DNA of 32,721 nucleotides from Verrucomicrobiales bacterium (GTDB lineage Bacteria; Verrucomicrobiota; Verrucomicrobiia; Verrucomicrobiales; DEV007), in assembly GCA_029213195.1 (NCBI GenBank), contig JARGNI010000054.1, forward strand, positions 1 through 32,721, in the 5' to 3' direction. Positions 24,661 through 32,519 of this stretch are shown here, in pieces. A program made the position numbers and the translations under genes. The stretch's first letter is position 1. Each line of letters begins with the position of its first letter. A model generated the notes under the pieces. That model was given only the letters and a program-made list of their open reading frames with translations, did not search any database and had not been told where the DNA came from.

Positions 24661-24817
24661 TCTTTCCAAGAGGGACGGCTTTCGCTATCCTGTTGGTGGA
24701 TTCCTCGTTCGCGGAGGGAAAAGCGCCGAATATTCGCCTGAATTTCGACGCCGATTCGTCCAATCGGTGGATTTCCCAGCGAACTGCTATCCTCGATCAC
24801 CCGCCTTCCCGACCCCT

Positions 24818-25576
24818 ATGAATCTGCGAGCACTCATTTTCGGTACCACGATTCTCCTTCTTCTCGGTCAATCCCCCGCCTTTTCCCAACTTCGACGCCC
24901 GGGGTTCGTGACCGTCGAGCGTGAAGATCGCACCAAGAGCCGTCTCAACCGGGAAGAAGGAGCCATCTATCTCGACGGCATGGTGACCAACGAAGTGAAG
25001 GTGCGAATCGACAAGACCGCTCCTGCCTATTCAAACCTCACCGGGGATCGTTGGCTGGGAAATCTATTCGACAAGCAGAATGCGGTTCTCCTGGCCGTTA
25101 GCGATCGCGCCTACCGGGTGCGAGGCAAAGCCAAACAAGGCCAGATCGCTGGCTGGGTCAGCAAAGCCGCCGTCTCCGGGCTTCCAGCCGACTTTGAAAA
25201 GAAGCTCAAGGAGTTTCACGAGCGCTACGTGATCGTCGAGAAACTGATCGAAAACAAGCAGGTCGCCCTGGGAATGACGGTCGAGGAAGTCATTGCCTCG
25301 ATCGGCCCCCCCGACAAACGCTCTTCGAAGATTACGCAAACAGGAAGAACCGATACCCTCGAGTTCATTTCCTATGAAAGAGTGCCGCAGACGACCGTCG
25401 TCTACGACTCGTTTGGCAGGGCCTTTCCCTCGACCCAGTATGTCGAAGTCGAGTCCGGCCGGGTCGTGATCGAGTTCGCCAACGATGCGGTGAGCTCCAT
25501 CTCGGAATCGGAAGGACTGGAGATGGGAGAAGCGGGAGGATACCGCATCGTCCCTCCCCCCATCTTCCTCTTCTGA
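24818..25576 (+). CDS. Secreted BamE/SmpA-like protein of unknown function
   Basis: The 252-residue protein starts at the ATG at 24818, giving a signal peptide (MNLRALIFGTTILLLLGQSP, then AFSQ). Residues 45-125 could be an SH3-like beta domain (VRIDKTAPAYSN, VLLAVSDRAYRVRGKAKQG). Residues 155-230 contain VALGMTVEEVIASIGPPDKR, the SmpA/BamE repeat signature of small envelope lipoproteins, followed by paired beta strands. There is no lipobox Cys, so it is probably periplasmic. The envelope role is inferred from fold only. A GTG at 24767 would add 17 residues without signal-peptide character. It follows the RNase gene by 188 bp. Confidence 0.6.
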   Translation: MNLRALIFGTTILLLLGQSPAFSQLRRPGFVTVEREDRTKSRLNREEGAIYLDGMVTNEVKVRIDKTAPAYSNLTGDRWLGNLFDKQNAVLLAVSDRAYRVRGKAKQGQIAGWVSKAAVSGLPADFEKKLKEFHERYVIVEKLIENKQVALGMTVEEVIASIGPPDKRSSKITQTGRTDTLEFISYERVPQTTVVYDSFGRAFPSTQYVEVESGRVVIEFANDAVSSISESEGLEMGEAGGYRIVPPPIFLF

Positions 25577-25698: not shown

Positions 25699-25718
25699 GT
25701 GCGTAACGCACTTTGACA
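25699..25718 (+). promoter_or_regulatory. Palindrome and consensus -35 upstream of the sod gene
   Basis: GTGCGTAACGCAC (25699-25711) is an inverted repeat immediately before a perfect TTGACA (25713-25718), about 75 bp upstream of the sod start. No convincing -10 lies 16-18 bp further on, so the promoter is tentative. The palindrome could be an operator. Confidence 0.35.
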
Positions 25719-25790
25719 ATCTGCCTTCCCCATTTCACCTTCGGGGACGGGTTTTGCGCCCGAATTTTTCACCCAAACGACCCAACTACT

Positions 25791-26417
<627 letters not shown>

Positions 26418-26880: not shown

Positions 26881-27963
26881 ATGGAAAAATCATTCACGAT
26901 TGGAGATCGCACCTTTGTCCTCGATCAAGACAAAGCAGAAGAAGCTTTCGCCGCCAAGAAAGTCATCAACGGCCGGAAAACAGAGGCCTTCAATCTTCTG
27001 CCCCTGAAGTATGCCTGGGCCTACGATCTTTATCGTACGATGAAGAACAATCACTGGGAGCCCGAAGACATCCAGATGCAGAAAGACATCGAGCAATGGC
27101 AGGGCTCGGAACTCTCCGAGAGTGAGCGCTGGATCATTCGGATGGGCATCGGCTACTTTTCCGCGGCCGAGGGAATCGTGGGGGACAACATCATCCACGT
27201 CGTCCGCGAGCTCGTGACGGCTCCTGAACTCAAGCTGGCCCTTGGTCGTCACGCTCATGAAGAGAATATTCATGCCGATAGCCTTCTCTACATGATCAGC
27301 AGCCTCGGGATCAATCCGCACGAGTGCGAGGCCATGTTCGAGCAGATCCCCACGATCAAGCGTAAGAACGAATTTGTCACCCGTACCTCTCACGAACTCC
27401 GTCGCGATGTCGACCTCACTGATCCAGCCAACAAGAAAGCTCTTGCCCGGAACATCTTCGTGTTTGGCCAGTGCATGGAAGGAACACAGTTCTATGGCCT
27501 CTTCGGGATGATCCTCTCCCTTTACCGCCAGAACAAGTTCCCGGGTATCGGGCAAATGTTCCGCTACACCCTTCGAGATGAGTCGAATCACATCGAACTT
27601 TTCAGAAACCTCTTCATGGATCTCATCAGCGAGAACATGGAAATCTGGACCGCAGAGTTCAAGCAGGAGCTTGTCGACACCATGAAGGAGGCCGTCGCCC
27701 TCGAGAAAGAGTTCATCAACGACTGTCTCCCGATCAGCCAGGTCGGCCTCAACGCTGCTGAGTTCTGCCAGTACATCGATTTCATTGCAGACCGACGCCT
27801 CGAGGGTATCGGCTTGAATCCTCTCAATCCAGGAGTTCAAAATCCGTTCCCCTGGCTTGCCGAGACCATGGATATCAAGAAGGAAGCCAATTTCTTCGAG
27901 CAGCGAGTCACCGAATACCAGAAGGCATCCGCCCTCTCGAGCGTAGACGACGACGAGTTGTAA
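26881..27963 (+). CDS. nrdB: Ribonucleoside-diphosphate reductase small subunit, class Ic-like (no radical Tyr)
   Basis: The 360-residue protein is strikingly like chlamydial R2: FSAAEGIVGDNI, then EENIHADSLLYMISSLG, MEGTQFYGLFGMILSLYRQN and YTLRDESNHIE. Metal ligands read as Glu97, Glu128, His131, Glu200, Glu234 and His237, with Glu rather than Asp as the first ligand. The residue four after His131, which is the radical Tyr in class Ia and Phe127 in Chlamydia, is Leu135; Tyr137 corresponds to chlamydial Tyr129. It should therefore use a radical-free high-valent metal centre (Mn/Fe or Mn/Mn) to drive nucleotide reduction with NrdA. nrdA follows after 107 bp with a large hairpin between. The acidic C-terminus (VDDDEL) is the usual R1-docking tail. 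Confidence 0.95.
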   Translation: MEKSFTIGDRTFVLDQDKAEEAFAAKKVINGRKTEAFNLLPLKYAWAYDLYRTMKNNHWEPEDIQMQKDIEQWQGSELSESERWIIRMGIGYFSAAEGIVGDNIIHVVRELVTAPELKLALGRHAHEENIHADSLLYMISSLGINPHECEAMFEQIPTIKRKNEFVTRTSHELRRDVDLTDPANKKALARNIFVFGQCMEGTQFYGLFGMILSLYRQNKFPGIGQMFRYTLRDESNHIELFRNLFMDLISENMEIWTAEFKQELVDTMKEAVALEKEFINDCLPISQVGLNAAEFCQYIDFIADRRLEGIGLNPLNPGVQNPFPWLAETMDIKKEANFFEQRVTEYQKASALSSVDDDEL

Positions 27964-28070: not shown

Positions 28071-31346
<3,276 letters not shown>

Positions 31347-31472: not shown

Positions 31473-32519
31473 ATGATGCTCTTTCTTGCTTCGATCGCGC
31501 TCGGTATCGGCCCCATGGTTCTTTACGCCATCCTTATTTGGCGAATTGACCGATGGGAGCGAGAACCGATTCCCCTGCTTCTCGCCGCCTTTCTCTGGGG
31601 GAGCATCCCCTCCGTTCTCTTTGCCTTGATTGGACAGGCCGTCCTCGGAATCCCCATGAACGATCTCAGTCCCGATGGGGCTCTCTTTCGTCAGCTCTAG
31701 CAGGCCAGCTTTGTCGCGCCTCTCACCGAGGAGATCACCAAGGGCCTCGGCCTATTGCTTCTCTTTCTCTTCTTCGAGCGAGAAATCGACTCGGTCCTCG
31801 ATGGCCTCATCTACGGAAGCATGATCGGTTTCGGGTTTTCGGCGGTAGAGAATGTTCTCTACTTCGTAGGCCAGACCACTCCCTCCGAGCTGTTTCTTCT
31901 CTTCTTCCTGCGAGCCTTTGTATTCGGAATGCTCCACGCCCTGTTTACCGGACTCGTTGGGGTCGGTCTTGCTCTTGGAAAGTTCTCACGAAATCTCACC
32001 CTCCGAATCGCCTGGCCCCTCATCGGCCTCGTCCTGGCCATTTTTACCCATGCCCTTCACAACTTCTTTGCAACGCTTGGCGGAGAACATCTCTGGTATA
32101 CCGTCATCGGGATCAGCTTCGGCCTGGTGTGGTTTGGGGTCACCTCCGTGGTTTGTCTCTGGCATGAGAATCGCTGGATCCAGATTCACCTCGCCGAAGA
32201 AATGGAAAACGGAGTTCTCATTCCCGAACAAGCCTTCGATGCGGCCCATTTCTGGAAGCGAAGCAGCCTTTGCATTCTCACCGACGGATACAGGATCACT
32301 CGCCAACGGCACAAGCTCCTGCACGAAGCCACCAAGCTGGCATTTGAGAAACAACGGCACACTCGGTTTCAGGTCACCGAGGAATGTCTTCAGCGGATCG
32401 CGAGACTTCGTGTCTCCGTCAAAGAACTGAGTCGCCTCGATCCCTTGTTTCAGGATCTGAAACTCTCACAGCGCAAACCACCCCCCATTCCTCCCCCGCC
32501 CATCCGGCGAATTCGGTAA
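31473..32519 (+). pseudogene. prsW: PrsW-family membrane protease gene interrupted by one in-frame TAG
   Basis: From the ATG at 31473 the frame gives 75 residues (MMLFLASIALGIGPMVLYAI, then WRIDRWEREP), a TAG at 31698-31700, and then 272 more residues in the same frame without another stop. The active-site motif EExxK (PLTEEITKG) lies 10 residues after the TAG, followed by FEREIDSVLDGLIYGSMIGF, SAVENVLYF, FGMLHALFTG and THALHNFFATL, the conserved Glu/His helices of PrsW intramembrane proteases. The C-terminal 110 residues are cytoplasmic and end in a Pro-rich, basic tail. There is no frameshift and codon use is unchanged after the stop, so the change is recent, a base error, or read through. 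Translation starting at the internal ATG at 31755 would lose the EExxK site. Confidence 0.8.

Follow-up and report, generated by a model that had tools for sequence, protein, structure and literature searches.

The nrdB-nrdA locus

Within the window, by which we mean the whole 32,721-nucleotide stretch of Verrucomicrobiales DNA that was analysed, the forward strand carries nrdB (26881..27963), encoding a 360-residue class Ic-like R2 subunit of ribonucleotide reductase (RNR) with leucine at the radical site, and nrdA (28071..31346, forward strand), whose 1091-residue product was identified as the R1 subunit by profile matches and by reading of its residues. The product of the 26881-27963 reading frame matched PF00268 in a profile search (E 6e-70) and scored 340 bits against the NCBI model NF005550/PRK07209, which has a cut-off of 309. 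Its top solved relative is the Chlamydia trachomatis (Ct) R2 (1syy, E 6e-81), and among the matches to solved structures the Ct entries (1syy, 4d8f, 2ani) come first, followed by 6y2n, from Saccharopolyspora erythraea. The assignment also draws on an AlphaFold model, built from a 45-row alignment (mean pLDDT 87.7, pTM 0.85, with residues 333-360 below 50), whose closest match was 4d8f, the Ct NrdB with Mn/Fe (Z 44.2, 2.4 Å, 326 residues, 38% identity). Comparison of the model with the Ct NrdB entries gave Z values of 43.1-44.2, the top two (Z 44) being those with Mn/Fe; 6y2n followed (Z 42.5), then tyrosine enzymes, class Ia among them, at Z about 34-38, and the class Id entries scored 33.7-35.3.

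Leu135 (codon CTT, 27283..27285, forward strand) takes the place of the radical tyrosine (E. coli Tyr122) and of Ct Phe127, as the original prediction had proposed; it lies on Phe127 in a local alignment that has no gaps around the first metal-binding motifs, and 2ani, whose title describes an F127Y mutant, has tyrosine in the same column. All six metal ligands are intact. By alignment these are, each on the forward strand, Glu97 (Ct Glu89; codon GAG, 27169..27171), which had rightly been named as the first ligand, Glu128 (Ct Glu120; 27262..27264), His131 (Ct His123; 27271..27273), Glu200 (Ct Glu193; 27478..27480), the bridging Glu234 (Ct Glu227; 27580..27582) and His237 (Ct His230; 27589..27591). 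The segment that the prediction had matched by eye to the chlamydial site does align there, but its start had been placed at 27262, which belongs to Glu128, whereas EENIHADSLLYM spans 27259-27294. Trp59 (Ct Trp51; 27055..27057, forward strand) and the C-terminal Tyr346 (Ct Tyr338; 27916..27918, forward strand), which we take to be electron-transfer pathway residues, were likewise found by alignment; Asp233 and Tyr229 are also in place, and the tail ends DDDEL. The presence of another tyrosine at the radical site, which would have undermined the prediction, was dropped as an explanation: the alignment places none there, and Tyr137, two residues past Leu135, aligns with Ct Tyr129, a position held by tyrosine in all 10 Phe-type rows of one alignment.

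The nrdA product has one clear ATP-cone at residues 163-249, a weak cone-like match at 50-140 that falls below the cut-off (E 0.006), a Tyr1032-Tyr1033 dyad, presumably the electron-transfer pathway residues of R1, and a CEAC motif at its C-terminus. In the window, as in 74 of the 80 named-genome loci, the gene lies downstream of nrdB and is read in the same direction; these loci are the 80 best-matching out of at least 568 relatives and hence close kin. No nrdA was found in the other six, of which L156, L189 and L192 stop shortly past nrdB and L152, L154 and L173 do not. The genome that contains the window (5.9 Mb in 115 contigs) has one R2 match and one R1 match, the latter adjoining the former, and an NrdR match; a search of it for NrdD gave no match, the control being positive in 6 of 14 genomes. 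The R1/R2 pair is likely, though not firmly, the sole RNR of this genome, since the assembly is 95% complete.

The surroundings of the pair offered little else. A putative NrdR box 5' of nrdB was rejected, the best 16-base match fitting the consensus at 12 of 16 positions and being equalled in 21 of 300 single-base shuffles. A gene for an Fe/Mn superoxide dismutase lies upstream of nrdB (25713-26417); a link between the two was dropped, with a dismutase match in only 5 of the same 80 best-matching named loci. The proteins encoded at 24767-25576 and 31553-32167 gave no Pfam match.

Distribution of the leucine type

An R2 match was found in 48 of the 56 relatives searched, the genome of the window included, and in 90 of 288 genomes across the phylum. 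The reading covered the former matches apart from truncated ones in G001, G002 and G009 (contig C108), and the latter apart from 14 of the 90 genomes, with matches of 23-41% identity (G091, G103, G120, G308, G185, G242, G100, G197, G058, G084, G207, G240, G278 and G290). Leucine was present in all 28 same-genus loci read, that of the window included, so that 28 of the 33 same-genus genomes searched read as leucine. The 125 R2-like reading frames from Verrucomicrobiota loci, counting fragments and the window copy, comprised 101 with leucine, seven with phenylalanine and full ligands, 10 with tyrosine, two metal-less proteins with phenylalanine and five that were unreadable at the site. Leucine with the same ligand pattern was found in 80 of 80 named-genome loci, the close-kin set drawn from at least 568 relatives. 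Since leucine is fixed across relatives, a sequencing error or a one-off change at Leu135 was dropped.

Beyond the phylum, matches were obtained in 15 of 121 genomes of Armatimonadota, the phylum of locus L154 (Fimbriimonadaceae; its record is labelled as a chromosome), with 10 leucine, four phenylalanine and one fragment. In the phylum of locus L146 (Planctomycetaceae) 36 of 246 genomes matched and 30 were read; three had leucine, and the other 27 were nine phenylalanine rows, 17 tyrosine rows and one exact duplicate. The leucine-type proteins of some genomes in these two phyla (L303-L312, L318-L320) may reflect gene transfer or, for some, mis-binned contigs; those of their rows that were kept in the 144-row tree fall inside the leucine clade, among Verrucomicrobiota. 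The 51 relatives on viral contigs had isoleucine (26), valine (7), phenylalanine (2) or tyrosine (16) at the site, and none had leucine. Some of these contigs (among L199-L249) carry an R2c clade with isoleucine or valine at the radical site and threonine in the pocket, many of its tails ending EDDF or similar. Searches of plasmids and phages matched 434 and 2279 records, and nine among the 120 matches listed were read, chosen for taxon spread.

Several relatives carry additional or divergent R2 proteins. Two same-genus genomes, G003 and G009, encode a metal-less R2 paralogue (L078:937-1998, reverse strand, and L079) that is 39% identical to the window R2 and is adjoined by a leucine-type paralogue (63-64% to the window R2), stretches of L079 being partly unread. 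In the metal-less protein the first Glu is replaced by Gly, the first His by Gly and the third Glu by Lys, L079 also being without the second His; the tyrosines at Ct positions 222 and 338 are lost, and the C-terminal SDDDL/SDDEL tail is kept. We take it to resemble yeast Rnr4. It appears, from codon comparison between the two species, to be kept as a protein, because pN is well below pS (0.14 and 0.47 over 354 codons; dN about 0.16, dS about 0.73). A beta-prime subunit that is unable to assemble the cofactor has been described (PMC3824934). Two other genomes, G164 and G252, have a tandem second R2 (L063:5209-6291, forward strand, and L064), 51-53% identical to the window R2, with all six ligands, Asn for Tyr at Ct position 222 and His at Ct position 129; the C-terminal region of the L063 copy is shortened.

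Finally, the same-genus genome G019 (96% complete), in which no match to the leucine-type R2 was found, encodes a class Id-like R2 fused to an ATP-cone (L113:3245-4957, forward strand) and preceded by an N-terminal PNPOx-type domain, PNPOx_N (PF01243, E 1e-15). Its pairing of Glu with Tyr, with Lys four past the first Glu and Trp three past the Lys, fits class Id as described in PMC6754362. The flavin-type domain could be an activating partner for an R2 of this superoxide-activated class, and our full-text literature search found no R2/PNPOx-type fusion.

First ligand, radical site and pocket

To relate the radical site to its neighbours we compiled 305 distinct R2 rows, the Ct and 6y2n stretches among them, leaving out sequences with fewer than 250 aligned residues or more than five X and exact duplicates. 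Listed as first ligand, radical site and pocket residue, the rows were Glu/Leu/Thr (182), Glu/Ile/Thr (22), Glu/Val/Thr (5), Glu/Phe/Ile (29), Glu/Phe/Val (1), Glu/Tyr/Thr (1), Asp/Tyr/Ile (50), Asp/Tyr/Val (8), Asp/Tyr/Ser (6) and one metal-less protein with Gly/Phe/Arg. A first-ligand Asp is thus accompanied by Tyr in 64 of 64 rows, and a first-ligand Glu with a full ligand set by a residue other than Tyr in 239 of 240, the exception being the class Id-like L113. The combination of Glu97 and Leu135 fits this pattern and, with it, the earlier suggestion that the enzyme needs no tyrosyl radical.

The pocket position is held in the window R2 by Thr230 (27568..27570, forward strand), which alignment places on Ct Ile223, four residues before the bridging Glu234. 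Phe204, Phe208 and Thr230 have the same spacing as E. coli Phe208, Phe212 and Ile234, a conserved hydrophobic pocket for dioxygen binding (PMC5623701), and as yeast Phe243, Phe247 and Ile269, which form the pocket round the tyrosyl radical (PMC3824934). Threonine occupies this position in all 209 rows with an aliphatic radical site (182 Leu, 22 Ile and 5 Val), in 0 of 30 Phe types and in 0 of 64 Asp/Tyr types. A scan of 339 positions found three at which one residue exceeds 90% in Leu types and in Ile/Val types and stays below 10% in Phe types; the two weaker columns are Ct positions 42 and 318, and only Ct position 223 is complete in Leu and Ile/Val types and absent from Phe and Tyr types. 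No description of the pairing of an aliphatic residue with threonine was found in the literature searched, as far as its available text goes; the primary surveys of 2009 and 2010 fall outside that body, and the pairing may be in print.

Phylogenetic analysis

Both trees were built with Ct columns 89, 127 and 223 masked. In a 144-row tree, thinned at 82% identity for Leu types and at 90% for the others and leaving out the metal-less R2 of L078, two starred clades stood apart from each other, one made up of the Leu rows (100) and one of the viral Ile/Val rows (99). A more careful 67-row tree was thinned at 76% and 80%, with 16 long or distant rows left out (L113 and the five Asp/Tyr/Ser rows among them) and no Ile-type row remaining; here too the Leu and viral Val groups came out as two starred clades, and the backbone was open. 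Both free trees place the Leu clade outside the Ct-like Phe enzymes, on a stem of 1.53 (144 rows) or 1.13 (67 rows), and the free tree does not unite all Glu/non-Tyr rows. Holding the 33 Glu/non-Tyr rows of the 67-row set together as one clade was not rejected (p-AU 0.266), and joining the aliphatic rows (12 Leu and 4 Val) cost 1.69 log units (p-AU 0.441). Because uniting the aliphatic rows costs so little, the large counts of aliphatic/Thr rows are to be read as copies of one or two events. The leucine type is widespread and in this set forms one clade, in which the residue is fixed and which, besides Verrucomicrobiota, takes in some Armatimonadota and Planctomycetota.

Class assignment

Class Ic is described from the Chlamydia enzyme, of the Phe/Glu type; instead of a tyrosyl radical this enzyme has a Mn(IV)/Fe(III) state whose Mn occupies the metal site closest to where the Tyr usually stands (PMC8463856). 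The window R2 resembles the Ct class Ic R2 structures (1syy, 4d8f, 4m1i) in its six ligands (Glu, Glu, His, Glu, Glu, His), its non-Tyr radical site, the pathway Trp and C-terminal Tyr, and its fold; it differs in having Leu135/Thr230 where Ct has Phe127/Ile223, in an identity of about 39%, and in belonging to a clade on its own long branch. The R2c protein 6y2n is a Phe-type relative with the same ligands but pairs its Phe with a pocket Ile and groups with Asp/Tyr enzymes on the trees. The RNRdb group NrdBzc, which corresponds to class Ic, is identified by a radical-site Phe, Leu or Val (PMC6370689, citing Lundin 2009) and is listed with Glu as first ligand; the window R2 has both. For R2c proteins Leu, Ile and Val are all on record (PMC3824934, citing Hogbom 2010), and with PMC6370689 this agrees with the statement made at the outset that Leu and Val variants had been noted. 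Phe or Leu occurs in phage class O proteins (PMC9531940). A literature search for Verrucomicrobia together with class Ic found nothing beyond a paper on how Chlamydiae evolved. The substitution itself is already on record; its clade-wide distribution and the second-sphere threonine deserve a test.

We conclude, with a probability of about 0.75, that the window encodes the R2 subunit (NrdB) of a working class Ic-type class I RNR whose oxidant is metal-only and most probably Mn/Fe. The protein has the fold and family of class Ic, its Glu-first ligand set and leucine at the radical site, and the partnership with R1 is represented by the R1 tyrosine dyad and by Tyr346 and the tail of R2. By analogy with the Ct enzyme, Glu97, Glu128, His131, Glu200, Glu234 and His237 would bind two metals, most likely Mn (site 1) and Fe (site 2), and reaction with O2 would yield a Mn(IV)/Fe(III) state that holds the oxidising equivalent, with no tyrosine beside the metals being oxidised. 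The equivalent would then leave through Trp59, Tyr346 and the R1 dyad Tyr1032-Tyr1033 to reach the active-site cysteine of R1.

An unlikely alternative is a dimanganese active cofactor of the kind found in class Id, whose oxidant is also metal-only (PMC6754362). The class Id NrdB of L. blandensis (6sf5) shares the first-ligand Glu with the window R2 and has Thr294 four residues before Glu298, just as Thr230 precedes Glu234, and L113, the sole class Id-like R2 of the 305 rows, has threonine in the pocket too. That threonine, which the window R2 has in common with class Id, a Mn2 enzyme, but with 0 of 30 Phe rows, would count against the Mn/Fe reading, as would the fact that the assignment is carried over at about 39% identity to a clade on a long stem. 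On the other side, class Id combines a radical-site Tyr with a first-ligand Glu (PMC8463856), and L. blandensis NrdB, 18% identical in the structural alignment, keeps both that Tyr and the loop Lys of the class Id subgroup that has been studied, Lys174, four residues after Glu170; the window R2 has Leu135 and, four after its first ligand, Gly101. As judged from these residues and from the predicted fold, Mn/Fe is likelier than Mn/Mn, because Ct NrdB is the best structural match (Z 43.1-44.2 against 33.7-35.3 for class Id), the class Id Tyr is absent and Gly101 stands in place of Lys174.

It is improbable that a radical forms on some other nearby residue. Tyr137 would be the obvious candidate, being nearly invariant in Leu types (98% of 181), yet the same tyrosine is found in 10 of 10 Phe-type rows, Ct with its metal-based oxidant (PMC8463856) among them, and is replaced by His in the Leu-type L065 and in the second copies of L063 and L064. 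Still less credible is a regulatory or degenerate protein that does not work as an R2; although metal-less R2 proteins occur in two same-genus genomes (L078, L079), the ligands and pathway residues of the window protein are complete and conserved, and it is the only R2 match of its genome, with the only R1 match adjoining. Class Ie, in which three metal-binding residues are lost (PMC11846895), was dropped since all six are present, as was R2lox (best model 60.5 bits with a cut-off of 194, an R1-type tail and an adjacent nrdA).

A possible role for the pocket threonine

Within the preferred Mn/Fe class Ic-type reading, Thr230, alone or with a water, would fill the space beside Leu135 and may help to position or protonate the Mn solvent ligand. 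The co-occurrence of Leu135 and Thr230 suggests coupling between the two positions. From the alignments this coupling is suggestive rather than proven, because the threonine pairing may reflect only one or two events on the tree. Repeated evolution of the Leu/Thr pairing was not borne out, given the p-AU for the aliphatic rows as one clade, and an independent-pairs test found one pair on starred branches and two on all branches, too few for significance. One point in favour of function over plain inheritance is that the sole perfectly shared column faces the radical site, which is an argument and not a test.

Tentatively, and with a likelihood that we put well below even, Leu135 and Thr230 may be coupled as a second-sphere pair diagnostic of a separate type of metal-only R2, in which the threonine hydroxyl would supply or relay a proton. 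Replacement of the aromatic ring by Leu, Ile or Val would be accompanied by a change of the facing Ile to Thr. The hydroxyl of that Thr, perhaps via a water in the vacated space, would contact the solvent ligand of the site-1 Mn and supply or relay the proton that accompanies Mn reduction. In Ct RNR, the Mn-bound hydroxide gains a proton when the cofactor is reduced; the origin of this proton is described as speculative, no nearby donor being obvious, and a water bonded to the ligand Glu193, with relay by Glu ligands, is mentioned as a route (PMC11883743). A threonine adjoining the Mn site, if the alignment is a guide to its position, is a candidate part of the proton path in aliphatic types.

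The threonine beside Leu135 thus bears on the open question of the proton source in Ct RNR. In L. blandensis NrdB, Thr294 hydrogen-bonds the silent Tyr207 (PMC6754362), and if the coupled pair is real, the class Id threonine that holds this tyrosine would be a parallel answer found by another family with a metal-only oxidant. More generally, the leucine type could reveal where in the metal-only mechanism the ring is indispensable.
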